Assembly: GCA_030144725.1 (NCBI GenBank)
Contig: JASKMD010000024.1
Location: forward strand, 7,986,160 to 8,050,159
Direction: 5' to 3'
Length of the DNA: 64,000 nucleotides
Source: Haematococcus lacustris
Taxonomy: Eukaryota; Chlorophyta; Chlorophyceae; Chlamydomonadales; Haematococcaceae
Shown: piece by piece, positions 20,488 through 55,161 of the stretch
How positions within the stretch are numbered: the stretch's first letter is position 1
Layout: every line of letters begins with the position of its first letter
The notes under the pieces: model-generated
Told to the model about the DNA's origin: nothing
What the model saw: the letters and a program-made list of their open reading frames with translations, nothing else
Databases searched by the model: none
Made by a program: the position numbers and the translations under genes

Positions 20488-20496
20488 CGTCCCCTT

Positions 20497-29320: not shown

Positions 29321-29938
29321 GGCTGGGCTGGGCTGGGCTGGGCTGGGCTGGGCTGGGCTGGGCTGGGCTGGGCTGGGCTGGGCTGGGCTGGGCTGGGCTG
29401 GGCTGGGCTGGGCTGGGCTGGGCTGGGCTGGGCTGGGCTGGGCTGGGCTGGGCTGGGCTGGGCTGGGCTGGGCTGGGCTGGGCTGGGCTGGGCTGGGCTG
29501 GGCTGGGCTGGGCTGGGCTGGGCTGGGCTGGGCTGGGCTGGGCTGGGCTGGGCTGGGCTGGGCTGGGCTGGGCTGGGCTGGGCTGGGCTGGGCTGGGCTG
29601 GGCTGGGCTGGGCTGGGCTGGGCTGGGCTGGGCTGGGCTGGGCTGGGCTGGGCTGGGCTGGGCTGGGCTGGGCTGGGCTGGGCTGGGCTGGGCTGGGCTG
29701 GGCTGGGCTGGGCTGGGCTGGGCTGGGCTGGGCTGGGCTGGGCTGGGCTGGGCTGGGCTGGGCTGGGCTGGGCTGGGCTGGGCTGGGCTGGGCTGGGCTG
29801 GGCTGGGCTGGGCTGGGCTGGGCTGGGCTGGGCTGGGCTGGGCTGGGCTGGGCTGGGCTGGGCTGGGCTGGGCTGGGCTGGGCTGGGCTGGGCTGGGCTG
29901 GGCTGGGCTGGGCTGGGCTGGGCTGGGCTGGGCTGGGC
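29321..29938 (+). repeat. (GGGCT)n array 2, about 123 copies
   Basis: Perfect pentamer repeat, same strand as arrays 1 and 3. It ends abruptly at GGGCCAGAAGATGGC, where the ACGG-rich sequence of the putative KDZ element begins. Confidence 0.97.
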
Positions 29939-29989
29939 CAGAAGATGGCAGTATACCTCCGTTTTGACTGGTGCCGGTACCATTTTGAC

Positions 29990-30660
29990 CGGTTGACTGT
30001 GCCGTTCATGAACGGAGCAGTTGCGGACGCTGGGTCAAAACGGTGCGACTGGTACCATTGATAAACGCTCCGTTTGATGACAGCGTCAACCTAGACGACG
30101 GTCCGTTCAAATGGACCGACCGAAGCAGTCAACACAGTAACATCTCAACGGTCCGTTCGAACGGTCTGACTGGTGCGGATGGCCTTGACGGTCTGACCGG
30201 AGCAAACGGAGTGACTGGAGCGACCGGACCGACCGAAGCAGTCAAGGCAGTATCATCTCAACGGTCCGTTCAAACTGTCTGACTGGTGCGGATGGCCTTG
30301 ACGGTCTGACCGTAGCAAACGGAGTGTCTGGAGCGACCGGACCGACCGGAGCAGTCAAGGCAGTATCATCTCAACGGTCCGTTCAAACGGTCTGACTGGT
30401 GCGGATGGCCTTGACGGTCTGACCTTAGCAAACGGAGTGACTGGAGCGACCGGACCGACCGGAGCAGTCAAGGCAGTATCATCTCAACGGTCCGTTCGAA
30501 CGGTCTGACTGGTGCGGATGGCCTTGACGGTCTGACCGGAGCAAACGGAGTGACTGGAGCGACCGGCCCGACCGGAGCAGTCAAGGCAGTATCATCTCAA
30601 CGGTCCGTTCAAACGGTCTGACTGGTGCGGATGGCCTTGACTGAAGCAAACGGAGTGATT
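29990..30660 (+). repeat. 113-bp minisatellite with AACGGAGTGACTG core
   Basis: Four full 113-bp units start at 30150, 30263, 30376 and 30489, with partial units on both sides. The period of exactly 113 was read from the recurring GGTCCGTTC. Each unit contains AACGGAGTGACTGGAGCGAC and the palindrome CCGTTCGAACGG or a variant. The core 13-mer recurs, inverted, in the 66-bp repeat at 53519-55157. Confidence 0.93.
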
Positions 30661-30828
30661 AACGACAACCACAGCGACCGCGTTGTCTAGACGGTGAAAT
30701 TCTCACTGCTCACTGCGGAGTATCCCAGTATGTGCCGGGAACATCGGCTCTAATAGACACTACCAACGTGCCATGGGTGCCCACATGTTGAGGCACCCTA
30801 AACCCCCATGAGTGTTGCTATCTGCCTT

Positions 30829-32755
30829 TCACGAGGGAGCGGAGGAAGGATTTCCTAGCAACCCAAGCATTCTAACTTTGTGGTCCAAATGCACAATAGT
30901 CCCTAATGTCCATTGAAACCGCTCTGCCTTCATGTGACGCAGCAAAGGCCCGTACTTGTTGATGTGCTTGAAACGTTGCTCACAGACCTGCGGTCATTAC
31001 CAACAACTTGTAATGTAGTTGCAACGAGCCCAACAACAATTGGCACGTCTACAATGCGTGATTGCATGTTCAGTAACACACCTCAGTATTGACGCCCTGC
31101 AACTCTTGCAGGGTGAGGGGGTTGACCATTGCATCACACCAGATCCCCTTGTGATTGTAAATGAAATGGAAGCGGTCCACTGCATGCTTAGCTTGCGTGC
31201 AGAACTTGTTGATCTCTGGGTGTAGGTGCGCTCGTTTCAATGCCCACCTGCACCCACCAGACAGATGATAGGGAGTATGGGAGGATACCGGGCTGCCCAA
31301 GCAGGCAGCAAACGGGGATAAGGCGGGCGGGAAGCAACGAGCAGCATGCGCGTAGCAACAGTTAGGTATTTTGGGGTTAGATTTAGGGTCAGTTATAGGG
31401 TCAGGTTTGAAGGTTATGGTAAGGTTCAGCGTCAGGTGTATTTATCAGCTTTAAGGTCATGGTTAGGTTTTTTGGGTCAGGGTTAGGGTTAGGGCTAGGG
31501 TTAGGGGTTAGGGTTAGGGCTAGGGCTAGGGCTAGGTTTTTGGGGTTAGGGTCTATGGTTAGGGATAGGGTTAGGGTTAGATTTGTTAGGGTTAGGGAGT
31601 TAGGGTTAGGGTTAGGGTTAGGTTCTAGGGTAGGGTAGGGTTAGGGGTTAGGGTTAGGGCTAGGGCTAGGGCTAGGGCTGGTTTTTGGGGTTAGGGTTTA
31701 TGGTTAGGGATAGGGTTAGGGTTAGGGTTAGATTTGTTAGGGTTAGGGAGTTAGGGTTAGGGTTAGGGTTAGAATCTAGGGTAGGGTTAGGGTGAGGACT
31801 AGGTTAGGGTGAGGATTAGGTCAGGGTGAGGATCAGGTTAGGGTGAGGATTAGGTTAGGGTGACGATTAGGGCAAAGGGGACAGCTGGGGGTCTGGGTCA
31901 GGGTCAAGGTTAGGCTGCCTACTCCTATACACCAGGGCTGCAACACACTCATACACTCCCCACCTCAACAGATGGCACATGTCGTCATACACAAACACGA
32001 ATCCTCCACGTGCAGACTCGGGGTAAGAACTGCTCCCCTCAAACCAGCGAATTATATTCAGGAGAGTCATGCGGGTTGACTCACAGTCAGCCATCTCGAT
32101 CCCAGGCAGCAACAAACCATCTGGACACATGGCCCAACAACATCCCGCAGTGCGCCTGCCGTCCTTTCCACCTGTGCGCATTGTGAACATTCATAGCACT
32201 GAGTCGATGTACATAATGTGACCAATATTTGCGTTTCAAACATGTCTCCCCAGCTTCAAAGTAAAGCCATTGATTTTCACGCACCTACACGCAGGCCACA
32301 CTTTGTGTATGCCACTTCCTTGTGTTGTCTCGTGGTCTTGCCACTCTGCATGTAAGCATATCATTTACACTCGCCACACTAACACTCTACACAACCTGCT
32401 TTCCCCAGCACAGGAAGCTCTACCTCACCTTGGCTCGTTCCTCTAAATGTTGTCTTGTAGCATGCCCTTCCTCCTCAGGCAGGTTTGACACCGCACTGTC
32501 CAGTTGCAGTTGCAGCATGTCTTCTTCACCGGACTTGTACACCTTCACCGCAATTTATGTACACCAACCACGGATAAGAAGCAGCATCAGGGTAGCAGCA
32601 GTGGCAGCAGCAGCAACAGGGTAGCAGCAGCGGCAGGGCAGCAGCAGTAGGGCAACAGCAGTAGCAGCAGGGCAGCAGCAGCCGCAGCAGCAGCAACCGC
32701 AGCAGGGGAACAGCAGCGGCAGGACAGCAGCAGCAGCAGGGAAGCAACAGCAGGT

Positions 32756-32786
<31 letters not shown>

Positions 32787-35700
32787 GCAGTAGCAGCAGC
32801 AGGGCAGCCACAGCAGCAGCAGGGCGACAGCTGCAGGGCAGTAGCAGCAGCAGCAGCAGGGTAGCAGCAGCAGGGCAGCAGCAGCAACAGCAGGGCAGCA
32901 GCAGCAACAGCAGCAGGGCAGCAGCAGCAGCAGCAGGGCAGCAGCAACATGGCAGCAGCAGCAGCAACAGGGCATCAGCACCATGGCAGCAGCAGCAACA
33001 GGGCAGCAGCAACATGGCAGCAGCAGCAGCAGCATGGCAGCAGCACCATGGCAGCAGCAGCAACAGGGCAGCAGCAACATGGCAGCAGCAGCAACAGCAG
33101 GGCAGCAGCACCATGGCAGCAGCAGCAACAGGGCAGCAGCAAAATGGCAGCAGCAGCAGCAGCAGGGCAGCAGCAACATGGCAGCAGCAGCAGCAACAGC
33201 AGGGCAGCAACAACATGGCAGCAGCAGCAACAGGGCAGCAGCAACATGGCAGCAGCAGCAGCAACAGGGCAGCAGCAACATGGCAGCAGCAGCAGCAGCA
33301 GGGCAGCAGCAGGGCAGCATCAGGGCAGCAGCAGGGCAGCAGCAGCAGCAGGGCACCAGCAGCAAGAAGAGTTTGTCATTCATATTCACCTTAATGGGCT
33401 CCTCCATCAGCACGTCTTCAGATAAGTCCCATGCTTCTCCCTTCCGCTGACTGCAGATGGCCTTCCACTCGTCAATAAGGCCCTTGTCAATGATGTTCTG
33501 TACCGGCTCCCAGGTTCTCTCCTCGTATCCCTACGCATCACACCAATAAGCAAGGTTTGTACGCGTTGCAGCGCTACACTCGAGGACGCGCTGTAACTGT
33601 CGCACTATAACTGTCACCCAAGGGTACGTAGCACAAGTCACGCAGCAAGCCCATTAGCATCATGCCATACAACCTCACCTCCCACGCCACATGGTACCAC
33701 AACTTGGCGCCCCTCACTTCTTCCCCACAGATGCGTTCTGCCTTGTACACTGTGCCCCGCGCTGACCTCTTGTAGCCACGCAAGGGTGGTGGCTGGGTAT
33801 CAGGCTCCAGCTGACTTTCCTGCTGCGCAACCAGCTGTACTGCCGCCAAGACACTGACGTTGCTGGACACACCTCTCTGCCTCTTATTAGCTGGCGCATC
33901 CCGCTGAGCAATCCGCTGGCTGCGTCGAATAGGAGGAGGAAGCCCAACCTCTGAGGGTAGGTGTCTGCTGAGGCTAGACAGCTCCATTGACTCATCGGGT
34001 GCTTCCAGCCATGCTTCGTCGGTCTGCTCCAGGTCATCATCACCTGCACATCATACACAACAACACTACGTTGTATCATACTGTGCTGCTGCTGCTCCTG
34101 CCCTGCTGCTGCCCTGCTGCTGCTGCCCTGCTGCTGCTGCAGCCCTGCTACTACTGCCCTGCTGCTAATGCTGCCCGGCTGCTGCATTGCTGCTGGTGCT
34201 GCACCACCACACCAGTCTAGCTGGCCTCCTGTACCTTACAAGCATAGAAAGTCCACTCATTTGTATGCACTGAGATTGGACCTCCTCCTACCTTGAGTTG
34301 CAGCAATGCCTTGCGTGTATTCTTGTACGACTGCAGGCCCTCGCTGAGAAGGGTCTGCTGGAGGGGATAAAGCTGCCTTGATGCATGCAGCACAGCGACC
34401 TTGATTGTCGCCCCTCACCGGTGTGCCTGTGCAGTACTTCTTGTAGAAAACTGCGTCCTCATCAACAAGACCCAACTCATCGGCTTTGTGCTCGCTGAAT
34501 GCTGGATTCAAGCAAGTGCAGCGTGGTCGCATTGAGCTAGAGTTACCATCCACCACCACTGCTCCTAGTTTATGCAACGGTTTGCATGCATGCTTGTCCA
34601 TGCAGCCGGCAGCGGTGGTATTTTTACATGGTCATGCACGGTGTAGAACTCTTCTGTTTTCTGCATGGAACTTTCTAGATATGTGAGACGGTGTGAGCTA
34701 CCCTGTTTTAAGCACATAACAGTTGTTTATGGACATTCCGTGTAAGACGCAAGCGCGTGTCACCGCTCTCCCGGATTCCTCAGGCTTCTCCCCGTTACAT
34801 TTTGGTGCCCTCAATCGGGAACAAACCGCCTTAACTACGGAGACTAGAGACTTGATGGAGGAACTATCGCCCATTGCGTATCAAGTCTCCGAGCTCATGC
34901 GCCAAGTCGGCGAGCTCACTCTTCTGACCGGCAGCCTGCGGCAGCAATTCGAGCACTTCGTCACAACGCAGCCCGTTGCTACCCCCGCTTCAACACCTCT
35001 AGAACCTTCTGGACAGTCCGCCCCTCCCGCCCCTCCCGCAGCCACCTCCGTTCCGCTGCCTTTCCGGCCCCCTCCACCACCGTCCTTCTGTGGGACCCCC
35101 AACGCGGATGCTGGTCAATGGCTGTGGCGCATCGACAACCATTTTGACCTTTTCGCCATGCCTGCCCAACAACGGCTGTTGGCTGTTGCTTCCTACCTCG
35201 ACGGCGCTGCCCTCACTTGGTACCGCAGCCTGCTGTCCAGCCAGGCCCTCAGCTCCTGGGACAGTTTCAAAGCCAGTTTCACGCGCCAGTTTACTCCTGT
35301 GAACCAGCAGCGGCATGCAAGGGATCAGCTGGCAGCCTGCCATCAGATCACATCAGCCCGGCAATACATCATGGAGTTCAGCAATCTTTGCCTCCTCATC
35401 TCTGACTTGTCTCCTGCGGAGAAACTGGATCGTTTCCTTAGGGGTCTCAAGCCGGCTGTGAGGCGGGAGCTGGAGCTGAGGGAGCCTACCTCCTTTGAGG
35501 AGGCTGCCGCCATGGCTGACCGCGTTGATGCTATCACCTTTGGCAGCCGCCCTCGCCTGCTCAAGCTCCCCGAACCTGAACCAGTAGCTGCCATGGAGCT
35601 TGATGCCCTGCAGGTCAGCAAGGGTCCCCGTTTATCAGCGGCTGAGCGCCAACAACTGCGTGACTTGGGAGCTTGCTTCTATTGCCGCAAGCCTGGCCAC

Positions 35701-38700
35701 CTAATGAAGGACTGTCCCAACAAGCCACCACGCCCAAACGACATTGGGGGCGTGCGGGAGGCAGCCCGCCGCTGAGCCCACCATACCTTCTGCCACCCTC
35801 TTCCTTAACTCCTCGCTTTGAGCTGGCTCCTCGTGTTCCCTACCACCTACCTCAACTCCCCGCTCCTCTTCCTCGGTCTCCTCCCCTTCGTCCTCCTCCA
35901 CCTCCTCTTCCTCGGGCTCCTCCTCCTCGGCCTCTTCCCCCTCCTCCTCGGCCTCTTCTCCGTGCCCCCTACTGGCTACCCACACTCCCTCTTCCTCCTA
36001 CACCTCAACCCTCACCACGTTTCCGTGCCCCGCTCTTCTGCCTTACTGTGCCCTGCCAGGCCCGCGGTGTTTACTGCCCTCCACGCAGCCCCCTTCCTCA
36101 GCAGTCAGCTCAGCCCCTGGGCAACTCCAAGTCTCCGGAACAGCCTACTCTGGCTGTAGAGTCCTCTCCATGCCCATCCGCACCTGTGGGCAGTGGTACT
36201 CCGCGTCACTCGTCGTCGCCTAGCCTGCCAGAGCCCCTAGTCATGTCGTCGCTCTCCGTGGACTCCAAGCCTTTCATCCTCCATGGAACCTTCTCTGGAC
36301 GCCGTGCTCGTTTCCTGCTGGACAGTGGTGCCACGGGCAACATTGTCAGCAGCCGCTTCTTGCAGCAAGCCGGCCTGCGCATGGCGGGCAAGGCTGCTCC
36401 TGGCCGTCTGCTCCTTCCTGGGCCCTCCCCTTCCTACCTTCCCACCTACGAGCTTTCCCACTGCACGGTACGCCTTTCTACCTACCATGATCGGGTGCCC
36501 TTCGTTATGGCTGATATTAGCAACGCCGACTACGATGTGGTGTTGGGCAAGCCATGGCTCACAGCGAAGAACCCTGATATTGACTGGCCTCTCGAGCAAA
36601 TCACTCTCCGCCATGCCGGGGCCGTACACACCCTAGCTGCTCCACCTTCTCCTGCCCCCAACCCCTCAGCCTTCCAGCTGCTGTCACCTGCGCGCTTCCG
36701 CAAAGCAGCCCACAAGGACACCGTATTCGTGGCAGTTCTCACGGACTCAAGTCCTCCCCTTTCACCCTCTCCAGCTATGCCCTCCTCCTGCACTTCAACC
36801 TCAACCTCCCCGCCACCTGATCAACCACAGTGGCCCCCTTCTCTTCCCCCAAGCGCTACCGCCCTACTATCTGAGCACATCGAGGTCTTTCCCAAGGAGC
36901 TTCCATCCGTGCATAATCTACCACATCGCTCTGTTGATCATGTAATCCAACTGGAGTCCGGCACCCCTCCCAACCGCCCTGTCTATCGCATGTCTCAAGA
37001 GGAGCTAGACGAGCTCAAGCGGCAGCTGGACGAACTCCTAGCCAAGGGCTACATCAGGCCATCCACGTCACCTTTTGGCTCTGGAGTCCTCTTTGTGCGC
37101 AAGAAAGACGGGAGCCTGCGCTTGTGTGTAGACTACCGGGCCCTAAACCAGCTGACCATCAAGAACCGCTATCCCCTTCCCCGCATTGACGACCTCCTGG
37201 ACCAGCTGGCTGGTGCTAGAGTCTTTTCCAAGATTGACCTCAAGTCTGGGTACCATCAGATCCGAGTGGCCGAGGCTGACATCCACAAGACAGCTTTCCG
37301 TACCCGCTACGGCCACTATGAATACACCGTTATGCCATTTGGCCTGTGCAACGCTCCCGCCACCTTTCAACGCCTCATGAATGACATCTTCCGCCCACAC
37401 TTGGATCAGTTTGTACTAGTCTACCTGGACGACATTCTCATTTACTCCCGGTCTGAGGCTGAGCACCTGGAGCACCTGCGCACCGTTCTAGGCCTCCTTC
37501 GCCAACACCAGCTATATGCCAACCTCTCCAAGTGCGCCTTCTTCCTTCCCTCTATGGACTTTCTGGGTCACATCATCTCGGCTGCGGGCATTCACCCTGA
37601 CCCAGCTAAGATTCGTGCCATGGTTGAATGGCCGGTACCCCCGCAATCTCAACGACCTCCGCTCTTTCCTCGGCAGTGCTAATTACTATCGGCGCCTCAT
37701 CCACCACCATGCCCACCTCATCCTTCCCCTCACCAACCTCCTCAAGGCCGAGACACCATGGTCATGGGGCCCAGAGCAACAAGAGGCTTTTGAGCGTGTC
37801 AAAGCTGCCCTAGCCAGCAACCCCGTGGTGCGCCCCCCAGACTTCTCCCGGCCTTTCACCGTGAAGACGGATGCGTCGTTGTATGCCATTGGAGCAGTGC
37901 TATCACAACGGGACGACAATGGCGCTGAGTACGTTGTGGCATATGAGTCACGCAAGCTTCAGCCCGCGGAGATCAACTACCCTACCCACGATCGCGAGCT
38001 ACTCGCTGTGGTGCATGCCCTTACTCTTTGGCGTCACTACCTTCTGGGTCGGCCTTTCACAATTGAGACGGACAACTGCCCGATCACTCACATCATGACC
38101 CAACCGCATCTCAGCGCTCGACAACTTCGATGGACCCAACTGCTGGCCCCTTACTCCTTTACCCTGGTGCACAAGGCTGGCAAGACACACATTGTGCCAG
38201 ATGCGCTCTCCCGACGGCCTGACTACCAGCTATCAGCCCTCTCCGTTGCCACCCCGGACTCTGCCTTCTTCGCTACCTTTGACCACCATGCCCCACAAGA
38301 CGCCGCCTATCAAGCAGCTTTCTCTCATACTCTTTCCCACAACCCCTCTGGCCCCTCCTCTTGGCACCTACGAGTCATAAATGGGCGCTTATATACAGCT
38401 TCTGAGCCCCCCCGCCTCTACGTCCCAGCCTCACCTCTCCGCTCCCAGTTGCTCCATGAGGCGCATGATGCAGTCACCTCGGCTCATCTAGGCCGTGCCA
38501 AAACCCTGGAACGCTTGCAGCGACACTTCTATTGGCCCCAAATGGAGCAGACAGTGCGCGAATATGTGAGGACCTGCGACCAGTGCCAACGGAACAAGGC
38601 CACCAACCAGGTTCCTCCTGGGCTGCTTCAACCTCTCCCCATTCCCAACCGCAACTGGCAACATGTCAGTATGGATTTCATCGGCCCTCTTCCTCCTACT

Positions 38701-41399: not shown

Positions 41400-41528
41400 C
41401 CCAAGTATATCCCTGTAGTCCAGTCAAGGCTTTGAATTTATCCCGACCTCGTGATCTCACACAAATTCTACTGCCACACAGCCCCCGACTTTGCCTCGGT
41501 GCTCATAGCATTTTCACCCCATTCCTTG
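41400..41528. promoter_or_regulatory. Short divergent intergenic region between KDZ and ATPase genes
   Basis: The KDZ gene starts at ATG 41399 (minus) and the DUF3987-like gene at ATG 41529 (plus), leaving about 130 bp, or about 50 bp if the latter starts at 41451. Such spacing suggests a shared bidirectional promoter. No TATA box was seen. Upstream exons for either gene cannot be excluded. Confidence 0.45.
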
Positions 41529-44500
41529 ATGGGCGCCAATAAAGCGGACACGGATCTCTTTGAGGCTGTGTTAAGCGCGGGCCCCCGGTCACCTGACGAT
41601 ATCATGCCTCCGCTCCTGGCGGCGATGCTTGGCTCCTTTGCTCGCCAATGTGGCGTTTCTTTAACATTCCCTGCAGCAGCCATGATGTCCTGCTTTGGCA
41701 CAGCCATAGGATGCGGGTTCCGTCTTCTCCCTAGCACGAGCTCAGGCTTAAAGGCCTACCCATCGTTTTGGACAGTCATGATCGGAGAGCCAGGGTCAGG
41801 TGCGACAGGCAGGGACATAATTGTAACTTGTTCATGAATTGAATTAACAAATCAACAGTTTTCTTTGCAGGCAAAACACCTACGATGACCCTTGTGTTGA
41901 AGAGCCTCCATCTCGCGCAGTTCTGCATTTCGACCCAGCAGTCCTTTGAAAAGGTCGAAGAGCGAGCGAGCTACATTTCGGGCTGCGTAAGTTTTGCATC
42001 GCTAGTATTGCGCATTTCCCGCATAACAGCGTTGTTGCGCTGCCCAATTCAGAAGACGATGGAGGGCATGTGCGACGAGCTGGCTTCCACTACTAACAAG
42101 TCCATGCTACTTACACACGACGAATTTAGCACCCTTTACTCCAGTGCTGGTGAGTCGAGCGTCCCGTTCGCTAAAATTCACCACCAATCCTGAATCATCT
42201 ATTAGTATCCATGTTCTCATAGCCTCGCTGTAATTGAACTGTCTTCCATGTTCACAGGAAAGTACGCTGCAGGCTCCTCGTCTTGCGCCAATGATAAGTC
42301 TCAGATGTTGACACTAGCAAGCGCTGGGCAGCTGGTCATCGGCACTAAATCGGGCGGGAGACAGGTGCTGGAGGCCGAATGCTACAATCTCTGCATTACC
42401 TCTGGCTGCCAGCCGTCTGTCTTTCGCAATCTCATGGTGAATCCCGCCAATATCGCGGATGGCACCTTGTACCGATACATTCCTCTGTATGGCACCGCCA
42501 ACCACTGCCCTGACAGTAAGTTGCGCCCAGTCCCCTCTCATTGACCCTCCACCCTTGAGCCTCCCCTGAACCTCCTCCGCCCAGCCCTCCTCCCCCTTGA
42601 CCCATCTTCCCCCAAGCCCCCTTGACCCATCCTCCCCCGCTCAGTCCTCCCCCCCCCATGATCGTCCTCCGCCCAGCCCCCCCTCCTATCCCTGACCCCC
42701 CTCCCCGAAGCCCACCTTACCCTCCTCCTCACCCACCACACCCCAAGCCCACCCTTCCCTCCGCTCAATGCTCCCCCCCCCCTGGACCCTCCCCCGCCCA
42801 GCCCAGCCCTACACCCCCTTGACCCATCTCACCCCAAGCCCACCCAACCCTCTCCAGCCAAAGCCCCCCCCCCTGACCGTCCTCCGCCCAGCCTAGCTCC
42901 CCTATCCCTGACCCCCCTCCCCGAAGCCCACCTTACCCTCCTCCACACCCACCACACCCCAAGCCCACCCTTCCCTCCGCTCATTGCTCCCCCCCCCCCT
43001 GGACCCTCCCCCGCCCAGCCCAGCCCTACACCCCCTTGACCCATCTCACCCCAAGCCCACCCAACCCTCTCCAGCCAAAGCCCCCCCCCCCTGACCGTCC
43101 TCCGCCCAGCCTAGCTCCCCTATCCCTGACCCCCCTCCCCGAAGCCCACCTTACCCTCCTCCTCACCCACCGCACCCCAAGCCCACCCTTCCCTCCTCCG
43201 CTCAATGCTCCCCCCCCCCTGGACCCTCCCCCGCCCAGCCCGGCCCTCCACCCCCTTGACCCATCTCACCCCAAGCCCACCCAACCCTCTCCCGCCGAAG
43301 CCCCCCCCCACCCCCTGACCGTCCTCCGCCCAGCCAAGCCCTCCTATCCCTGACCCCCCTCCCCGAAGCCCACCTTACCCTCCTCCTCACCCACCGCACC
43401 CCAAGCCCACCCTTCCCTCCTCCACTCAATGCTCCACCCCCCCTGGACCCTCCCCCGCCCAGCCCAGCCCTACACCCCCTTGACCCATCTCACCCCAAGC
43501 CCACCCAACCCTCTCCAGCCAAAGCCCCCCCCCCTGACCGTCCTCCGCCCAGCCTAGCTCCCCTATCCCTGACCCCCCTCCCCGAAGCCCACCTTACCCT
43601 TCTCCTCACCCACCGCACACCAAGCCCACCCTTCCCTCCTCCACTCAATGCTCCCCCCCCCCCCTGGACCCTCCCCCGCCCAGCCCAGCCCTACACCCCC
43701 TTGACCCATCTCACCCCAAGCCCACCCAACCCTCTCCCGCCGAAGCCCCCCCCCCCTGACTGTCCTCCGCCCAGCCAAGCCCTCCCCTTGTCTCACTTCC
43801 CTTTGACCCACATGACCCACCTGCCCTGGCCAGGGTGCATAGTTGTGCAGTGTCTGGTATCTTTGCCAATACTAACCTGCAAAGTTGTTATTGCGCAGGG
43901 TCACCCGCTGTTGCAACAGCCGATGCAAATGCGGCCGACGCAACAACGGGTGATGTAACGTTTGGTGATGCAACAACATCCGATGAAGCAGCAGGTGATG
44001 CAGCAGGAGGTGATGCAGCAGGTGACGGGCATGACATCCGCAGCGAGCTGCGACGATTGAACCTTGCCGAGGATGTGTATGACAAGTGGAAGCAACTCGA
44101 TGATTTGCAACGCATCAACTCCTTTCGGCAGACTGGTAGCGCTGCCACGCGCAAGCGCCCTGATCCCAACAATCAGCCTGATGACAAACTCACTGGTTTA
44201 TGCCGCAGGTGAGCCTTTTGTTTCGCATGCTGCACTCAGACATTGTCTTGTTCATTAGCGACTTCTGTTGCCTTCACACTTGATTGCAGTTTGTGCAATG
44301 CCATTGGTTTGCAACGGCTTCCTAAGGAGCAATGTCCACCTGGCATTGGAACATCCTTGCCTCCTGCTGTGGCATGCATGGCCCAGGTATGGTACCAAAC
44401 CACACTTGATAAATATATCTCTTCCATTCGGCACCTGCTGGATATACTTCTTTACCAGCAGAGATACAAGCTTACATATCTATTGACATGCCGTGCCCCT

Positions 44501-47500
44501 CGAGCAGGTTCTTGTTGACCTGGTAGGCTTGAGCTGCGACAAACAGCCTGACGGGGTCTTGACCCCGACCAACGACAAGTGCATCCTTTCTGACGACGCC
44601 CTCATTGCCTTTGAAAAACTCACACAGATCTTGTCAGCGATCCAGACCAAAGAGTGCCACCCTGTGGTGAAAGGTAGGACGCAGTAAGCCTCCTCCTCCA
44701 AGCCCTTCTCCCACTGACCCACCATCCCAATCCCACCCTCCCTAGCGCAATCCTTCCCCCACTGACCCACCTCTGCCCAGCCCCCCTCCCCCTGACCCAC
44801 TATCCCAAGCCCACCCTACCCTCTCCCTGGCCCAGTCCTCCCCCTATTAACCCTCCTCCGCTCAGCCCTCCTCCCCCTTGACCCATCTCCCCCCAAGCCC
44901 ACACTACCCCCCCCCCCCCCCCCACCCCCCAACGCCCTGGCCCCCCCCACTGACCCACCTCCGCCCAGCCCCCCTCCCCCTGACCCACTATCTCAAGCCC
45001 ACCCTACCCTCTCCCTGGCCCACCTTCCCCAAGCCCACCCTACCCTCCACCGCTCAGTCCTCCTTCCCCTGACCCTCCCCCCCCAGCCACGTAGGCAGCA
45101 ACACGTAGGCAGCAGCAAGCATGCTGTCGTGGCCGCTGGCAAGCATGCTGTATGTAGTCAACACCTCTGTTACGTAGGCATCATGTTGGTAGTTGCATGG
45201 GGGTCATGTGTTAATACAACATGCATGAGGGGGTTGTGTGTTGTCCTTGCATTGCAGCTGCTCTATTCAAGTACCCTGTCCTTCTTCTGAAGACTGCGTT
45301 GACCTTCCACTTGACAACCTTCGTCATGCAGAACCCGGTTTCAGATCTGGCACTGGACCGCTCAACGGTTCCTCAGCTTCTGTGCACTGTTGACACCGCG
45401 TCGCTTCAGCATGCGTATGACTTCACCGGACTTGCCTTGTTCTCGACATTGGCTTTCGTTGGAGATGACAAGCTCTCCGCTGCTCGGGTGAGCAACACCC
45501 CACATCATATATGCATGTCCATTGCACAGTTGCCTGGTCATGACTTCCTCGTTGTTACGCAACACGGCGCCATAATCAGTCTAATAGCATTATGATATGA
45601 GATTATGATGGGAGCACCCCATGCCTACCCTGACCCGCTGACACACCGCACCGCACCGCAAGGCTGCGCGTGACACGGACCGCACCGCACAGCACGGCAC
45701 TTGTTGAAATGCCTTTGGCCTGAGTGAGGGTCGGTGAGACGGTGTTCAGGGCAAAGATTACAGTTATACCCTTACAAGGAAGTATCTCTACATCTGGTGT
45801 GCATTCCTACAGGAGTGCTGGCGGTTGTACCCGGATTTTCTGCGCAACAACATCACCACCCACGCCATGTCAAAGTCAACGATTCGAGCTTTCCTTCCAC
45901 CCATCAGCAGGAAAAGACCATTGGTGGAGGTCATGAGGAGCAGCGGGGGAGATGAGGGCGGTCGGGAATCGTCTCGGCGGCGCCTTACTGCAGCATGCCT
46001 GGGTCAGGATACAGCAGCGCCTCCCAATGAGTCCGCTCCAAAACAGTCACTTCCAGTCCACCCATTGGCATTCATCGCAGCAGCTCTTTCTGATGTTGAC
46101 ACAACTGGCGCCCTGGGCAGCTCCGTGCTGAAAGCAGCTCCTTACCTCGCCAAATCCAAAGTGACAGACACCGTTGATGGGGCTCAAATATCCACGCGCT
46201 TGTCAGCGTACACCTTCCCAACAAGCAGAGCTTGCGACGTCAGTAATTTGAAGAAGGATCGACTGGCGGCGAAGAATGCCCCGTTGGGCACAGTATTGAC
46301 CTCGGACAAGGACAAAGGCATTCTGTCCAAGCTCATGAAGCTTGCCTTGGTGGCATGCTGTGGAGAAGGTCCTCGTCGACTTGCGCTGCGTATGTACCAT
46401 GACATCATGAGCAAAGCCTCTTCGTCCGTCAAAGACTCCTTTCCAGCAGGCCTTGTGGAGACAGCTCCCCATGTCTTCTCTGATGTGTGGACGAGCGCAG
46501 CTTCCGGCAAGAAGGGCCTTGATCCTTTCTGGTACTGGTCAATCACCTGCCCTGACGCCGCCGCGTTGGGATTTACTGCCAAGGAGCCCCCTCCCAACAC
46601 TACTGCGACTCCCCCTGCCGACCTCTCTCTCCCCATCCGGCTAAGGTCGCACATCCCATCCGGTATCTCAACGGATGCAGTCGCAGCATTGTTCGAGGCC
46701 GAACTGGACCAGATCGTGTCCCACCTCTGGACTGTCAATCTCTTTGCCAGGAAACGACTCATTGACAACGCTCTCACGCGCTTGGAAGAGCTGGGGGATG
46801 GCTTCTGTAACGGGGAGAAGCCTGAGGAATCCGGGAGAGCGGTGACACGCGCTTGCGTCTTACACGGAATGTCCATAAACAACTGTTATGTGCTTAAAAC
46901 AGGGTAGCTCACACCGTCTCACATATCTAGAAAGTTCCATGCAGAAAACAGAAGAGTTCTACACCGTGCATGACCATGTAAAAATACCACCGCTGCCGGC
47001 TGCATGGACAAGCATGCATGCAAACCGTTGCATTCACCCCCTCCCTGAAATGTTGCGCCCCGAAACATTTAACCTTCGTGACCTCCGCACACTGCTCCGC
47101 CTGCACTCATGACATAGCCATGCTCCTTTAGGAACACTACGTAGAGGTGGAGTGAGGCAGGTGATGTGATAACCTTGGTCACACTTGTCGCAAAGTAGCA
47201 TGGGAGGGTGGCTAGCGCGGCTCGCGCAAATCTGGCATGCAGGGTCGTCGTCTATTGGCTTGTCAGGAGGTACGTGGTGGCGAGCCGTGTAGTCTCTGAT
47301 CATTGCAGCCACGTCCTCTTGTTCGGCCAATGCTGGGCCCCATTCCCACGAGTTGAAGGAGTCGTCGTAGCCCTTCCACTTCACAAGGTATTGAAAAGCA
47401 TGCTGGGAGTCATTCCAGCGTCGTCCCAAGATGGCTTCAATGGTGAAGTACTCCTCACCGTCCTCCAGTTGAGGTAGTGGTTGCAGGTCAACATGGCGGT

Positions 47501-50500
47501 CGGGGAAGGAGCTGGTGGTAAGGTACGGCCTCAGCTTGGAGATGTGGAAGGTGGGTGTGATCCTCATCGTGGTGGGTAGGTCCAGCTTGTAAGCCACAGG
47601 TGAGATCTTGGTCAGAACCTTGAAGGGGCCAACATAGCGGGGTTGTAGCTTGGCGCTGTTGCTGGGCGTCTTGAGGTTAAGAGTGGCAGTAGAGAGGAGC
47701 ACCTTATCACCCACATTGAACTCAAGATGTCGGCGGTGCTTATCCGCCTGTTGCTTTTGCTTGTCAACCGCACGCTGCAGGGCTGCCTTGGCTGTGTCGA
47801 TGTTGGAGCGCATGGTGGTGACAAAGGCGTCAGCAGCGGGGCTGGGAACAAGAGTGGAGGGGGGCTGCAACAAAGCCTCAGGTGTGCGGGGGTGGTGGCC
47901 ATAATTGAGGTAGAAAGGGGAGAAGCCTGTGCCAACATGGGTAGAGCTGTTGTATGCAAACTCCACAGCGGCTAGATGCTGGTCCCAATCTGTCTTGTGG
48001 TGGTTGATGTATGGTCGTAGCATATCCTCCACTGTCCGGTTGGCGCGCTCTGATTGCCCGTCTGTTTGGGGATGGTAGGCAGAGGACATGAGTAGGCGAG
48101 TGCCGGTGAGGTGAAAGAGGGATGTCCAGAAGTCCGAAGTAAACTTTGGATCTCTGTCAGAGACAATTGCCTCAGGTAGCCCATGGTGCTTGAAAACATG
48201 GTCGAAGAAAAGCTTGGCGATGTCAGGGGCGGTGGCAGTGGCAGTGGTAGGGATGAGGTGTAACATCTTGCTTAACTTGTCCACAACTGTAATGACCATG
48301 TCGTAGCCGTGAGAAGTAGGAGGAAGAGGGCCGATGAAATCCATACTGACATGTTGCCAGTTGCGGTTGGGAATGGGGAGAGGTTGAAGCAGCCCAGGAG
48401 GAACCTGGTTGGTGGCCTTGTTCCGTTGGCACTGGTCGCAGGTCCTCACATATTCGCGCACTGTCTGCTCCATTTGGGGCCAATAGAAGTGTCGCTGCAA
48501 GCGTTCCAGGGTTTTGGCACGGCCTAGATGAGCCGAGGTGACTGCATCATGCGCCTCATAGAGCAACTGGGAGCGGAGAGGTGAGGCTGGGACGTAGAGG
48601 CGGGGGGGCTCAGAAGCTGTATATAAGCGCCCATTTATGACTCGTAGGTGCCAAGAGGAGGGGCCAGAGGGGTTGTGGGAAAGAGTATGAGAGAAAGCTG
48701 CTTGATAGGCGGCGTCTTGTGGGGCATGGTGGTCAAAGGTAGCGAAGAAGGCAGAGTCCGGGGTGGCAACGGAGAGGGCTGATAGCTGGTAGTCAGGCCG
48801 TCGGGAGAGCGCATCTGGCACAATGTGTGTCTTGCCAGCCTTGTGCACCAGGGTAAAGGAGTAAGGGGCCAGCAGTTGGGTCCATCGAAGTTGTCGAGCG
48901 CTGAGATGCGGTTGGGTCATGATGTGAGTGATCGGGCAGTTGTCCGTCTCAATTGTGAAAGGCCGACCCAGAAGGTAGTGACGCCAAAGAGTAAGGGCAT
49001 GCACCACAGCGAGTAGCTCGCGATCGTGGGTAGGGTAGTTGATCTCCGCGGGCTGAAGCTTGCGTGACTCATATGCCACAACGTACTCAGCGCCATTGTC
49101 GTCCCGTTGTGATAGCACTGCTCCAATGGCATACAACGACGCATCCGTCTTCACGGTGAAAGGCCGGGAGAAGTCTGGGGGGCGCACCACGGGGTTGCTG
49201 GCTAGGGCAGCTTTGACACGCTCAAAAGCCTCTTGTTGCTCTGGGCCCCATGACCATGGTGTCTCGGCCTTGAGGAGGTTGGTGAGGGGAAGGATGAGGT
49301 GGGCATGGTGGTGGATGAGGCGCCGATAGTAATTAGCACTGCCGAGGAAAGAGCGGAGGTCGTTGAGATTGCGGGGTACCGGCCATTCAACCATGGCACG
49401 AATCTTAGCTGGGTCAGGGTGAATGCCCGCAGCCGAGATGATGTGACCCAGAAAGTCCATAGAGGGAAGGAAGAAGGCGCACTTGGAGAGGTTGGCATAT
49501 AGCTGGTGTTGGCGAAGGAGGCCTAGAACGGTGCGCAGGTGCTCCAGGTGCTCAGCCTCAGACCGGGAGTAAATGAGAATGTCGTCCAGGTAGACTAGTA
49601 CAAACTGATCCAAGTGTGGGCGGAAGATGTCATTCATGAGGCGTTGAAAGGTGGCGGGAGCGTTGCACAGGCCAAATGGCATAACGGTGTATTCATAGTG
49701 GCCGTAGCGGGTACGGAAAGCTGTCTTGTGGATGTCAGCCTCGGCCACTCGGATCTGATGGTACCCAGACTTGAGGTCAATCTTGGAAAAGACTCTAGCA
49801 CCAGCCAGCTGGTCCAGGAGGTCGTCAATGCGGGGAAGGGGATAGCGGTTCTTGATGGTCAGCTGGTTTAGGGCCCGGTAGTCTACACACAAGCGCAGGC
49901 TCCCGTCTTTCTTGCGCACAAAGAGGACTCCAGAGCCAAAAGGTGACGTGGATGGCCTGATGTAGCCCTTGGCTAGGAGTTCGTCCAGCTGCCGCTTGAG
50001 CTCGTCTAGCTCCTCTTGAGACATGCGATAGACAGGGCGGTTGGGAGGGGTGCCGGACTCCAGTTGGATTACATGATCAACAGAGCGATGTGGTAGATTA
50101 TGCACGGATGGAAGCTCCTTGGGAAAGACCTCGATGTGCTCAGATAGTAGGGCGGTAGCGCTTGGGGGAAGAGAAGGGGGCCACTGTGGTTGATCAGGTG
50201 GCGGGGAGGTTGAGGTTGAAGTGCAGGAGGAGGGCATAGCTGGAGAGGGTGAAAGGGGAGGACTTGAGTCCGTGAGAACTGCCACGAATACGGTGTCCTT
50301 GTGGGCTGCTTTGCGGAAGCGCGCAGGTGACAGCAGCTGGAAGGCTGAGGGGTTGGGGGCAGGAGAAGGTGGAGCAGCTAGGGTGTGTACGGCCCCGGCA
50401 TGGCGGAGAGTGATTTGCTCGAGAGGCCAGTCAATATCAGGGTTCTTCGCTGTGAGCCATGGCTTGCCCAACACCACATCGTAGTCGGCGTTGCTAATAT

Positions 50501-52732
50501 CAGCCATAACGAAGGGCACCCGATCATGGTAGGTAGAAAGGCGTACCGTGCAGTGGGAAAGCTCGTAGGTGGGAAGGTAGGAAGGGGAGGGCCCAGGAAG
50601 GAGCAGACGGCCAGGAGCAGCCTTGCCCGCCATGCGCAGGCCGGCTTGCTGCAAGAAGCGGCTGCTGACAATGTTGCCCGTGGCACCACTGTCCAGCAGG
50701 AAACGAGCACGGCGTCCAGAGAAGGTTCCATGGAGGATGAAAGGCTTGGAGTCCACGGAGAGCGACGACATGACTAGGGGCTCTGGCAGGCTAGGCGACG
50801 ACGAGTGACGCGGAGTACCACTGCCCACAGGTGCGGATGGGCATGGAGAGGACTCTACAGCCAGAGTAGGCTGTTCCGGAGACTTGGAGCTGCCCAGGGG
50901 CTGAGCTGACTGCTGAGGAAGGGGGCTGCGTGGAGGGCAGTAAACACCGCGGGCCTGGCAGGGCACAGTAAGGCAGAAGAGCGGGGCACGGAAACGTGGT
51001 GAGGGTTGAGGTGTAGGAGGAAGAGGGAGTGTGGGTAGCCAGTAGGGGGCACGGAGAAGAGGCCGAGGAGGAGGGGGAAGAGGCCGAGGAGGAGGAGCCC
51101 GAGGAAGAGGAGGTGGAGGAGGACGAAGGGGGGGAGACCGAGGAAGAGGAGCGGGGAGTTGAGGTAGGTGGTAGGGAACACGAGGAGCCAGCTCAAAGCG
51201 AGGAGTTAAGGAAGAGGGTGGCAGAAGGTATGGTGGGCTCAGCGGCGGGCTGCCTCCCGCACGCCCCCAATGTCGTTTGGGCGTGGTGGCTTGTTGGGAC
51301 AGTCCTTCATTAGGTGGCCAGGCTTGCGGCAATAGAAGCAAGCTCCCAAGTCACGCAGTTGTTGGCGCTCAGCCGCTGATAAATGGGGACCCTTGCTGAC
51401 CTGCAGGGCATCAAGCTCCATGGCAGCTACTGGTTCAGGTTCGGGGAGCTTGAGCAGGCGAGGGCGGCTGCCAAAGGTGATAGCATCAACGCGGTCAGCC
51501 ATGGCGGCAGCCTCCTCAAAGGAGGTAGGCTCCCTCAGCTCCAGCTCCCGCCTCACAGCCGGCTTGAGACCCCTAAGGAAACGATCCAGTTTCTCCGCAG
51601 GAGACAAGTCAGAGATGAGGAGGCAAAGATTGCTGAACTCCATGATGTATTGCCGGGCTGATGTGATCTGATGGCAGGCTGCCAGCTGATCCCTTGCATG
51701 CCGCTGCTGGTTCACAGGAGTAAACTGGCGCGTGAAACTGGCTTTGAAACTGTCCCAGGAGCTGAGGGCCTGGCTGGACAGCAGGCTGCGGTACCAAGTG
51801 AGGGCAGCGCCGTCGAGGTAGGAAGCAACAGCCAACAGCCGTTGTTGGGCAGGCATGGCGAAAAGGTCAAAATGGTTGTCGATGCGCCACAGCCATTGAC
51901 CAGCATCCGCGTTGGGGGTCCCACAGAAGGACGGTGGTGGAGGGGGCCGGAAAGGCAGCGGAACGGAGGTGGCTGCGGGAGGGGCGGGAGGGGCGGACTG
52001 TCCAGAAGGTTCTAGAGGTGTTGAAGCGGGGGTAGCAACGGGCTGCGTTGTGACGAAGTGCTCGAATTGCTGCCGCAGGCTGCCGGTCAGAAGAGTGAGC
52101 TCGCCGACTTGGCGCATGAGCTCGGAGACTTGATACGCAATGGGCGATAGTTCCTCCATCAAGTCTCTAGTCTCCGTAGTTAAGGCGGTTTGTCCCGATT
52201 GAGGGCACCAAAATGTAACGGGGAGAAGCCTGAGGAATCCGGGAGAGCGGTGACACGCGCTTGCGTCTTACACGGAATGTCCATAAACAACTGTTATGTG
52301 CTTAAAACAGGGTAGCTCACACCGTCTCACATATCTAGAAAGTTCCATGCAGAAAACAGAAGAGTTCTACACCGTGCATGACCATGTAAAAATACCACCG
52401 CTGCCGGCTGCATGGACAAGCATGCATGCAAACCGTTGCAGCTTCCTAAACGAAGAAGATGCGCTGTGCATGGATCTTCGCTCGATCAACTTCCAGGTAC
52501 GTTCGTTATTATGCCTTGTCATCTACTATCAATTGCTTGCCACTTGCCCATATCTGCGCACTGCATATTGCTTCACTAAACGTTGCATGCCACCTGCTCA
52601 CCGCCCTGTAAATGAGCCTTCTGCTGTTCACCCCAGGTTAACATGCTCCCGGACATGCCCCTTTCTAAGTGGGGAGGTATTGCTCTCCAAAACATTTACA
52701 ACAAGCTGCCGGAGCTGAGCCTAGCTTTCTGA
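41529..52732 (+). CDS. DUF3987-like P-loop ATPase (split by a retrotransposon)
   Basis: Plus-strand exons: 41529-41799, 41871-41986, 42053-42149, 42258-42515, 43899-44208, 44290-44386, 44508-44673, 45258-45487, 45813-46805 continued at 52446-52496, and 52637-52732. They total exactly 895 codons with the stop and all introns are GT-AG. Exons 1-2 join to give a Walker A motif (GEPGSGKTPT) split by an intron. Exon 3 supplies a Walker B-like strand ([12 protein letters not shown]). Exon 4 has [14 protein letters not shown] and [12 protein letters not shown], matching the sensor region of DUF3987 (YfjI-type) primase/helicase-associated ATPases. The C-terminal 300-odd residues are unassigned. The only lesion is the chromovirus insertion (target GCTTC). 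The start could be 5' of 41529. Confidence 0.7.
42541..43810. repeat. C-rich ~220-bp tandem repeat in an ATPase-gene intron
   Basis: Units begin TTGACCCATCTCACCCCAAG and recur about every 220 bp (near 42817, 43037, 43258, 43480, 43700). They fill the intron 42516-43898. An ACTAAC branch-point-like motif lies at 43871-43876, 22 bases before the acceptor. Pro-rich frames are artefacts. Confidence 0.9.
44690..45090. repeat. C-rich repeat in the intron 44674-45257
   Basis: Related to the 42.5-43.8 kb repeat (TGACCCACCTCCGCCCAGCC, CAAGCCCACCCTACCCTC), in shorter, imperfect units. Confidence 0.85.
46806..47032 (-). repeat. 3' LTR, chromovirus copy 2
   Basis: 227 bp. On the plus strand it begins TGTAACGGGG and ends CCGTTGCA. 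Confidence 0.96.
47034..51341 (-). CDS. Pol polyprotein, chromovirus copy 2 (chromodomain plus PHD finger)
   Basis: A 1435-codon open frame in the -1 frame relative to gag, translated by slippage at 51281-51275. A Pro-rich linker fills residues 30-190. Domains: aspartic protease (LLDSGATGN, Asp217); reverse transcriptase about 430-640 (YLDD at 584-587); RNase H about 725-845 (TDASLYAIG, ADxLSR-like PDALSRRPD); integrase zinc module (His931, His938, Cys968, Cys971) and catalytic core with Asp1001, Asp1062 and Glu1098; GPF-type C-terminal module; chromodomain about 1298-1345 ([10 protein letters not shown] ... [17 protein letters not shown]); PHD finger 1369-1413 (CQIC ... [14 protein letters not shown] ... 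GAWLCHEC). All catalytic residues are present. The chromodomain is known to steer chromovirus integration to marked chromatin. A PHD finger behind it is unusual. Confidence 0.95.
51235..51281 (-). promoter_or_regulatory. -1 ribosomal frameshift site, copy 2
   Basis: Reverse complement of the copy 1 site: CCCAAAC at 51281-51275 in the gag frame, followed by the same GC-rich stem-loop. Confidence 0.8.
51239..52159 (-). CDS. Gag, chromovirus copy 2
   Basis: 306 residues from ATG 52159 to the stop at 51239-51241. Sequence and domains as in copy 1: Gag domain, then a CCHC knuckle [14 protein letters not shown]. At least one substitution is visible (GPHLSAAE versus GPRLSAAE). Confidence 0.93.
52214..52440 (-). 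repeat. 5' LTR, chromovirus copy 2
   Basis: 227 bp, identical by eye to the other LTRs. The downstream target duplication GCTTC starts at 52441. Confidence 0.96.
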
Positions 52733-53518
52733 ACACAACACGTGAGTAATGTGCCGGATGCGGCGGTGGGTGTGGCGGCCTGTGGGTGGGACGGGCTGTG
52801 GATTTTGCATTGCTTCTTAACCGCCCTTAGAAACCCTGCAGTGGGCATTAGCTTGGGCACCGTTGCCATTACCATTACCATTGCCTACTGTTATGCTCCT
52901 GCGAACAGGCGCCGAGGAACGGGGCTACGGTGAATGGTGCTGCCAGGCGCCAAGGATCGGCGATGGGTAGGCGCAAGGTCGTACCGTAGGGGTACCGTAT
53001 AGCCGAAGGGCTGTTGTAGCGCTGTAGCGATTGAGCTGCTACGAGATGTTTGTGCTCCATTGGGTCGTAACTGATCAGCTGTATTGCCGTCGTGTGATTG
53101 CCTCACTATTGTCCTTGTGCTGCTGGGGCTTATCTTGGACCGGGGCCGGTGTCGGACCTGGAGCTCAAGCTGCTCAGCGTCTAATCTGATGTTGGGCCGC
53201 TGAACTGCCTGTGAACTGCCGCCTGGATGTCTGGATGATAAGCCTCGGGATTGCCTTTGTTGGGCAACCTATTGGTTGCTGTGTATTTGTCGCTGAGCAC
53301 CTTATGTCTTAGGGCTGATGCAACGCCGCTGCTTTCCTCTAGGTTCCGTAGCGTTCGGCCGGGTACATGGTCATGTGATAGACTTGAGGGTGAAACACTA
53401 GTTACCATCACTCGCCCCTGTAACCGTCTTCTAGGTTCTCTGGCTGATTGGCTTTGCCCAGAACCATCTTCGCTCATGTCATTGCAATCACCGTACGTCC
53501 GTCCGTTCGTCCGTCCGT
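52733..53518. other. No gene seen; 3' flank of the ATPase gene
   Basis: Short frames only. Contains a small run of ATTACC near 52865-52885 and, just before the minisatellite, repeats of CGTCCGTC near 53495. Confidence 0.45.
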
Positions 53519-55157
53519 CTGCCTCGCTATCCCTAGCTCCAGTCAGTCCAGTCACGGCAGTCACTCCGTTCGCTCCGTTTGGGCCTGCCTCGCTATCCCT
53601 AGCTCCAGTCAGTCCAGTCACAGCAGTCACTCCGTTCGCTCCGTTTGGGCCTGCCTCGCTATCCCTAGCTCCAGTCAGTCCAGTCACAGCAGTCACTCCG
53701 TTCGCTCCGTTTGGGCCTGCCTCGCTATCCCTAGCTCCAGTCAGTCCAGTCACAGCAGTCACTCCGTTCGCTCCGTTTGGGCCTGCCTCGCTATCCCTAG
53801 CTCCAGTCAGTCCAGTCACAGCAGTCACTCCGTTCGCTCCGTTTGGGCCTGCCTCGCTATCCCTAGCTCCAGTCAGTCCAGTCACAGCAGTCACTCCGTT
53901 CGCTCCGTTTGGGCCTGCCTCGCTATCCCTAGCTCCAGTCAGTCCAGTCACAGCAGTCACTCCGTTCGCTCCGATTTGGCCCGCCTCGCTATCCTTACCT
54001 CCAGTCAGTCCTGTCACAGCAGTCACTCCGTTCGCTCCGTTTGGGCCTACCCCGCTATCCTTAGCTCCAGTCAGTCCAGTCACAGCAGTCACTCCGTTCG
54101 CTCCGTTTGGGCCTACCCCGCTATCCTTAGCTCCAGTCAGTCCAGTCACAGCAGTCACTCCGTTCGCTCCGTTTGGGCCTGCCTCGCTATCCCTAGCTCC
54201 AGTCAGTCCAGTCATGGCAGTCACTCCGTTCGCTCCGTTTGGGCCTGCCTCGCTATCCCTAGCTCCAGTCAGTCCAGTCACGGCAGTCACTCCGTTCGCT
54301 CCGTTTGGGCCTGCCTCGCTATCCCTAGCTCCAGTCAGTCCAGTCACAGCAGTCACTCCGTTCGCTCCGTTTTGGCCCGCCTCGCTATCCCTAGCTCCAG
54401 TCAGTCCAGTCACAGCAGTCACTCCGTTCGCTCCGTTTTGGCCCGCCTCGCTATCCTTACCTCCAGTCAGTCCAGTCACAGCAGTCACTCCGTTCGCTCC
54501 GTTTGGGCCTGCCTCGCTATCCCTAGCTCCAGTCAGTCCAGTCATGGCAGTCACTCCGTTCGCTCCGTTTGGGCCTGCCTCGCTATCCTTACCTCCAGTC
54601 AGTCCAGTCACAGCAGTCACTCCGTTCGCTCCGTTTGGGCCTGCCTCGCTATCCCTAGCTCCAGTCAGTCCAGTCACAGCAGTCACTCCGTTCGCTCCGT
54701 TTGGGCCTGCCTCGCTATCCCTAGCTCCAGTCAGTCCAGTCACAGCAGTCACTCCGTTCGCTCCGTTTGGGCCTGCCTCGCTATCCCTAGCTCCAGTCAG
54801 TCCAGTCACAGCAGTCACTCCGTTCGCTCCGTTTGGGCCTGCCTCGCTATCCCTAGCTCCAGTCAGTCCAGTCACAGCAGTCACTCCGTTCGCTCCGTTT
54901 GGGCCTGCCTCGCTATCCCTAGCTCCAGTCAGTCCAGTCACAGCAGTCACTCCGTTCGCTCCGTTTGGGCCTGCCTCGCTATCCCTAGCTCCAGTCAGTC
55001 CAGTCACAGCAGTCACTCCGTTCGCTCCGTTTGGGCCTGCCTCGCTATCCCTAGCTCCAGTCAGTCCAGTCACAGCAGTCACTCCGTTCGCTCCGTTTGG
55101 GCCTGCCTCGCTATCCCTAGCTCCAGTCAGTCCAGTCATGGCAGTCACTCCGTTCGC
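53519..55157 (-). repeat. 66-bp minisatellite with inverted AACGGAGTGACTG core, about 25 units
   Basis: Period 66 bp (22 codons, so open in several frames on both strands). Units read GCCTCGCTATCCCTAGCTCC then AGTCAGTCCAGTCACAGCAG then TCACTCCGTTCGCTCCGTTT. Read on the minus strand each contains AACGGAGTGACTG, shared with the 113-bp repeat at 30.0-30.66 kb. Most variants are single substitutions (TTTGGG/TTTTGG, CCCTAG/CCTTAC). It joins the GGGCT array directly at 55158-55161. Confidence 0.95.
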
Positions 55158-55161
55158 CTGG

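Follow-up and report, generated by a model that had tools for sequence, protein, structure and literature searches.

What kind of structure spans positions 29,939 to 55,160 of a stretch of Haematococcus lacustris DNA in which two genes diverge between inverted minisatellites? The whole stretch analyzed, here called the window (C127:7986160-8050159, 64,000 nucleotides), was compared with a 307.9-Mb assembly of 597 contigs, which served for all genome searches and in which some stretches read as N. Judged from its sequence, the structure is a KDZ (Kyakuja-Dileera-Zisupton) DNA transposon of ~14 kb without its two nested Ty3/gypsy retrotransposons, in line with an earlier note on this DNA, which had claimed a large KDZ element of about that size once the two insertions are discounted. 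The window copy is dead and appears to be truncated on its right side, and the element family has moved within the Haematococcus genome. To this reading as a whole, namely a two-gene KDZ transposon whose gene pair and ends are read from the sequence and for which we infer the roles of the ATPase and of the arrays, we assign a probability of roughly 70%. The window copy itself is broken three times, by one insert in each gene and by the absence of its right end. Its coding parts are as follows.

30829..41399, minus strand: KDZ transposase gene (ATG at 41399; GT-AG splicing; PF18758; relatives P0001-P0006)
41399-40806, 40722-40632, 40550-40390, and 40273-40215, minus strand: KDZ exons 1 to 4, the last running up to the insert
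34568-34292, 34043-33679, 33530-33390, 32542-32429, 32163-31964, 31247-31082, and 30987-30829, minus strand: KDZ exons past the insert
Near 32284-32344, minus strand: further small KDZ exon, from comparison with P0003
33462..33747, minus strand: Polycomb-like chromodomain in the transposase (C piece residues 192-237, split by an intron; PF00385 at 28.4 bits, cut-off 25.1)
41400..41528: divergent intergenic region, with similar spacing at other loci
41529..52732, plus strand: DUF3987 ATPase gene (ATG at 41529, stop at 52732; PF13148)
41529-41799, 41871-41986, 42053-42149, 42258-42515, and 43899-44208, plus strand: ATPase exons 1 to 5
44290-44386, 44508-44673, 45258-45487, and 45813-46805 (to the insert, remainder from 52446), plus strand: ATPase exons 6 to 9

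The earlier note had described a KDZ gene and a P-loop ATPase gene that diverge about 130 bp apart, which agrees with the 129 bp between the two ATGs. Its frame length of ~895 codons for the ATPase stands as well; the KDZ exon model comes to ~800 codons and not to 838. All exons read are open frames, and the exon joins used are GT-AG; the letters used in KDZ searches are without one small exon (~23 codons with its join). The Pfam KDZ family PF18758 scores 29.7 bits in the C piece of the window protein, above the cut-off of 26.6, and lies just under this cut-off in the relatives P0005 (25.8) and P0003 (23.1); it has no match in P0001 and P0006, whose models both lack the C terminus. All six relatives of the C piece at an E value of 0.001 (P0001 to P0006) are from H. 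lacustris. CxC5 reaches 13.8 bits in the window N piece and 24.9 bits in P0003 (cut-off, 26.9). The motifs VVVDGN, VYDDMCH, and NTEVCEQ, which we take to hold the KDZ catalytic acidic residues, are conserved in those relatives that span them. Between the first and the second of these acidic motifs lies the chromodomain, which the earlier note had not mentioned. Its best solved structure is Polycomb (1pfb, 33 bits), and its Y, W, and Y align with Y, W, and W of Polycomb, presumably the aromatic cage of the domain; PF00385 is above its cut-off also in P0001 and P0003 and below it in P0006. AlphaFold models were dismissed, given a mean predicted local distance difference test score (pLDDT) of 35 for P0003 and of 38 for ATPase exon 9. 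Two of the KDZ introns (31474-31872 and 32580-33364) contain telomere-like GGGTTA and long CAG-type repeats, with similar ones there in other copies.

Is this pair of genes found together elsewhere? In the genome, the ATPase protein gives 38 matches, which group into 10 loci. KDZ coding sequence lies nearby at nine of them, counted from the ATPase side.

Window; C22:4.72 Mb (C22a); C175:2.72 Mb; C136:0.54 Mb (C136u); C136:7.87 Mb (C136b): ATPase and KDZ loci
C373:4.796 Mb (C373a); C373:4.804 Mb (C373b); C373:10.2 Mb (C373c); C144: further ATPase and KDZ loci

The tenth locus, C476, has a 3' piece of the ATPase only, with no KDZ sequence within 9.4 kb. First exons survive at seven of the nine paired loci, head to head and with ~107 to 136 bp between starts (for C373c the ATPase start is a manual count, and for C144 the KDZ start is not placed exactly). 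C373a and C373b hold the first KDZ exon only, lie 7.7 kb apart and inverted (L047 + L052, C373:4796100-4804400), and may be one inverted duplication rather than two independent loci. Two of the seven head-to-head loci belong to far more diverged lineages: at C373c, KDZ is 90 to 100% identical to P0006 over most pieces and the ATPase pieces are 27 to 36% identical to those of the window, and at C144 the ATPase pieces are 27 to 49% identical to the window's. The P-loop intron sits at the same position in all three lineages (window, C373c, and C144), and this, together with the head-to-head arrangement common to diverged lineages, suggests that the pair is old and has been inherited as a unit. 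Loci at which the two genes are neighbors, for which the earlier note had proposed a search, thus exist. Independent occurrence of the genes, which it had set against its own proposal, is not what the ATPase shows; gene-poor copies with KDZ 3' exons do occur.

Comparisons of the window with the better-kept copies C22a and C175 gave low ratios of nonsynonymous to synonymous divergence (dN/dS, 0.14 to 0.19): 0.136 for KDZ against C22a (dS, 0.328; 749 codons), 0.163 for the ATPase against C22a (dS, 0.488; 333 codons, with six of nine exons found), and 0.189 for the ATPase against C175 (dS, 0.573; 631 codons). Ratios were higher for KDZ against C136u (0.365; two exons with stops) and C11b (0.426) and for the ATPase against C136u (0.267) and C136b (0.243). 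Judged from these coding comparisons, both proteins are kept functional by purifying selection as the lineages spread, and the recurrence of the pair in distant relatives within the same genome hints that both would help the element move.

The following features mark the ends of the window copy.

29939..29998, plus strand: left terminus CAGAAGATGGCAGTATACC..., forming the outer portion of an imperfect inverted repeat, with a boundary common to eight other copies
55158..55160: truncation point; compared with six copies, the last ~160-170 bp, including the right inverted repeat, are absent

The left end lies exactly at 29939 and is identical to the base in eight other fetched copies with unrelated flanks. 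Genome-wide, the left terminal pattern occurs 19 times exactly (window included) and 3 times with one mismatch, compared with 0 and 1 for the controls; of 35 left-end matches, the 13 that had two mismatches were dropped before counting, which left 22. On the right, the edge at 55160 given by the earlier note did not survive, since in six other copies another 167 to 177 bp follow the last 66-bp unit before the element stops at the same terminus, TTGCCATGCTCTC. This terminus has 21 matches in the genome (control, 0), and no match was found in the window; of 13 further right flanks read, two on C373 agree and all others differ from one another. Without its terminal right stretch and joined to a GGGCT array, the window copy is not a complete unit, and its truncation means that its own target duplication cannot be shown. 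The absent right end may also be an assembly error at the GGGCT array.

Pairing by nearness on the contig joined the 22 left and 21 right ends into 15 pairs, with 7 left and 6 right ends unpaired. The paired elements span 4.8 to 29.4 kb (the longest, C136c, has no duplication and may be mispaired). Target duplications of 8 bp are exact in 8 of the 15 pairs, match at seven of eight positions in 2, and are absent from 5, compared with a best of 5/8 among 210 mismatched end combinations. The pairs with exact duplications include C143a and C166, which are 16 to 17 kb long. The element termini are CA..TC, and left and right ends match as an imperfect inverted repeat of ~60 bp (43 to 45 of 59 to 60 positions in six copies); for 200 pairs drawn at random from within C40, the mean was 16 matches and the maximum 39. 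The common ends, terminal inverted repeats (TIRs), and 8-bp duplications that the earlier note had proposed as a check are therefore present in other copies, the inverted repeat being imperfect. C1, C90, C40, C11b, and C56, which keep the ends and arrays and, of the genes, KDZ 3' exons only, are deletion derivatives. C1 and C90 have their gene-poor structure in common at two sites with different exact duplications, suggesting that copies bearing ends and arrays were moved in trans. Another derivative, of 7.5 kb and with pieces of both genes (C136:7868227-7875698; L048, L066), lies within TTAGGG-like repeats and has a 7/8 duplication.

Inside the ends lie the minisatellites, with GGGCT arrays beyond them.

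30113..30641, plus strand: left subterminal minisatellite, 113-bp unit x 4.7 (Tandem Repeats Finder, TRF), carrying AACGGAGTGACTG
53519..55157, minus strand: right subterminal minisatellite, 66-bp unit x 24.8 (TRF), with the 13-mer inverted; the array recurs in other copies
29321..29938, plus strand: GGGCT array beyond the left end, belonging to an older repeat module and not to the element
55161..56698, plus strand: GGGCT array that directly adjoins the right truncation (TRF)

The arrays sit ~170 bp inside each end. Their units have a 13-mer in common in inverted orientation, the longest direct match being 8, and among 1,000 Markov shuffles of the two units none reached 13 and 4 reached 12. 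Genome-wide, the 13-mer has 177 + 159 matches against 12 + 10 for a reversed control (~15 times commoner). In other copies, too, arrays lie inside the ends in inverted orientation, with units of 113 to ~133 bp on the left and of 66 bp on the right. The inverted minisatellites described in the earlier note were recovered by TRF, and recur at element edges elsewhere; its pure GGGCT arrays beyond each of them were confirmed, both in the same orientation. Could the minisatellites be passive tandem expansions by the ends, binding nothing? The units differ in length and number from copy to copy, the left side of C11b is without the exact 13-mer, and the host genome, like the window itself (TRF), is rich in tandem repeats. 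We nevertheless consider this unlikely, given an inverted common 13-mer beyond 1,000 shuffles and the retention of arrays near each end in gene-poor copies that moved all the same.

A split GGGCT array was dismissed as proof; the 12 matching bases that follow the arrays, at 21931 and 56700, are rich in G and have a third copy at 20764. The repeat module, which has a GGGCT array at its end, is present twice (20492-21928 and 28584-29938; 93% identical over 535 bp), and the KDZ element starts directly at the end of the second of these arrays. A further minisatellite, with 21 copies of a 44-bp unit (ACAGGGTTCTGCCGCACGG...), follows just past the right GGGCT array (56968-57881) and is, as far as seen, unrelated to the element arrays. 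The open frames of 540 to 1,196 amino acids on both strands of 53181-56905 are products of the stop-free minisatellite and GGGCT arrays and not genes.

What, then, might the second gene contribute? Its product matches DUF3987 (PF13148) with 51.5 bits (cut-off, 27.0), as does the C144 core with 40.0 bits; the C373c core, at 18.6 bits, is under the cut-off. It has the Walker A motif GEPGSGKTP (also present in viral contig L053), a Walker B-like LLTHDEF, and the later DUF3987 motifs. No AAA+ family was above the Pfam cut-off, and Pfam found no primase part in the algal ATPase pieces. The best PHROG profile is a phage helicase (phrog_5311, E value of 9e-6). A protein search at an E value of 0.001, which restricts candidates by length and common words, gave no match; residues 1 to 247 gave one Prim-Pol + DUF3987 protein (P0007; E value of 0.79, ~22% identity) and no match in PDB at an E value of 1. 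Among viral contigs, one search found no relative, and alignment found one relative at 26% identity.

Bacterial elements such as Tn7, Mu, and IS21 pair a transposase with an ATPase, which is an AAA+ protein for target choice, and Tn7 and Mu need this ATP-driven partner. The Haematococcus element has the transposase and ATPase pair in common with them and differs in that they are bacterial and their ATPases are AAA+ and not DUF3987. Because this layout is conserved here, one might suppose that the ATPase chooses targets or regulates the transposase, as TnsC, MuB, and IstB do, and is not a helicase. This is unlikely in our view: the protein is a DUF3987 ATPase with no AAA+ match and with a helicase as its nearest phage profile, and the chromodomain already gives the element a means of choosing targets. 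A helicase-like aid is tentatively favored over TnsC-like target choice. It is improbable, too, that the ATPase is a passenger that aids the element or its host otherwise, through anti-silencing or extrachromosomal replication, and not in transposition. Fungal KDZ elements do carry cargo such as TET/JBP genes, and that cargo comes and goes between transposon groups (PMC12730594), whereas here the same partner, head-to-head layout, and intron position are common to three lineages.

It is thus possible to sketch how the two-gene element would move. The KDZ transposase would bind the subterminal arrays, as suggested by their position and orientation, and would pair and cut the ends. The simplest use of its chromodomain would be guidance to methylated chromatin, and it may steer insertion to such chromatin where this is repeat rich; short G-rich arrays around 3 of 21 left flanks (window, C22a, and C136b), seen by eye, without a background, and a lead only, and the two chromodomain-retrotransposon copies in the window locus fit such guidance weakly. 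The DUF3987 protein, expressed from the same short divergent promoter, would act as a helicase-like ATPase partner and would aid the unwinding, remodeling, or repair of DNA during the movement of a very long element, and derivatives retaining ends and arrays would be moved in trans. A bolder version, which we hold tentatively and at somewhat short of even odds, is a two-component transposon in which a chromodomain-guided KDZ transposase and a helicase-like DUF3987 protein form an old module for the ATP-assisted, possibly replicative movement of elements of at least 14 kb into repeat chromatin.

Several observations weigh against the two-gene transposon. Among the copies read, none has both genes intact and both ends; ATPase exons 7 to 9 and the right end of C22a were not found in 26.5 kb, and C175 is without a paired right end. 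The two distant relatives appear to have decayed, with no Walker B stretch in the C373c ATPase. One of the five pairs that lack a duplication is C136u, a copy of 14 kb that holds parts of both genes, and with a random-pair maximum of 39, the 43 to 45 matches of the inverted repeat are not far above the null extreme. C1 and C90 are just 88 to 96% identical over aligned stretches, C1 has a 2.5-kb N gap, and the C11b left side, as mentioned, is without the exact 13-mer. The pairs without duplications and the two C373 right ends with the same flank might even suggest that segmental duplication, and not transposition, spread a pair of host genes; this explanation is so strongly contradicted by precise ends, unrelated flanks, and eight exact 8-bp duplications that we dismiss it.

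The two insertions that interrupt the genes of the window copy are long terminal repeat (LTR) retrotransposons.

34573..40209, plus strand: Ty3/gypsy LTR retrotransposon in the KDZ gene (duplication GTTTA; LTRs identical at 227/227)
46806..52440, minus strand: second Ty3/gypsy copy, in the ATPase gene (duplication GCTTC; LTRs identical at 227/227)

Their 5-bp duplications bear out the earlier claim of two nested retrotransposons, and insert-free versions of the respective sites exist in C22a and C136u. The copies lie in opposite orientation and are 99.86% identical to each other, which, together with their identical LTRs, makes the insertions look recent. Their frame, when scanned, encodes gag, protease, reverse transcriptase, RNase H, and integrase. 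It also matches a chromodomain in part and has a PHD finger, which is unusual as a second chromatin reader; among papers on PHD fingers with chromodomains, none was to the point, judged by titles and abstract starts.

How does the element compare with known systems? KDZ elements of giant size with additional genes are not new, since those of Ectocarpus and Chlamydomonas reinhardtii are known. Ectocarpus elements reach 30.3 kb, and a mobile 31.7-kb C. reinhardtii KDZ is cited (PMC12477816); Zisupton and Kyakuja are named in Chlamydomonas (PMC8226300). These giants resemble the Haematococcus element in superfamily, large size, nested insertions, extra genes, and algal host; the excerpted account names no KDZ chromodomain or DUF3987 partner, its chromodomains being those of Gypsy (PMC12477816). 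Active fungal elements, Cryptococcus neoformans KDZ1-3, likewise have a KDZ transposase and, in KDZ1, 8-bp duplications, and differ in their TIRs of 139 to 241 bp, length of 9 to 11 kb, and CxC1 domain, with no ATPase or helicase mentioned in the excerpt (PMC12810828). Fungal Kyakuja, Dileera, and Zisupton elements also combine a KDZ transposase with a second gene, which is a TET/JBP dioxygenase in contrast to the DUF3987 ATPase of Haematococcus; duplications are of 7 bp in Kyakuja and, as here, of 8 bp in Zisupton and one Dileera (PMC12730594). Membership in Kyakuja was rejected, as Kyakuja has 7-bp duplications, CA..TG termini, and no TIRs (PMC12730594), compared with 8 bp, CA..TC, and an imperfect inverted repeat in our element. 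In the open-licence literature, judged by titles, abstract starts, and passages, we found no report of a chromodomain KDZ transposase or of a DUF3987 partner.

With a conserved pair, defined ends, gene-poor derivatives, and a culturable alga, the need of large elements for an ATP-driven partner becomes testable; the chromatin reader within the transposase likewise allows one to test directly whether a DNA transposon guides its insertion. Chromoviruses, too, fuse a chromatin reader to an integrating enzyme (PMC12477816); the Haematococcus chromodomain differs in lying inside a DNA transposase. DUF3987 is a predicted helicase of prokaryotic mobile elements (PMC5862659), and prokaryotic Prim-Pol + DUF3987 proteins such as P0007 have this ATPase domain in common with the algal pieces, which differ in being without the primase part and encoded beside a eukaryotic DDE-type transposase. 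A domain known from prokaryotic mobile elements is thereby placed in a eukaryotic one.

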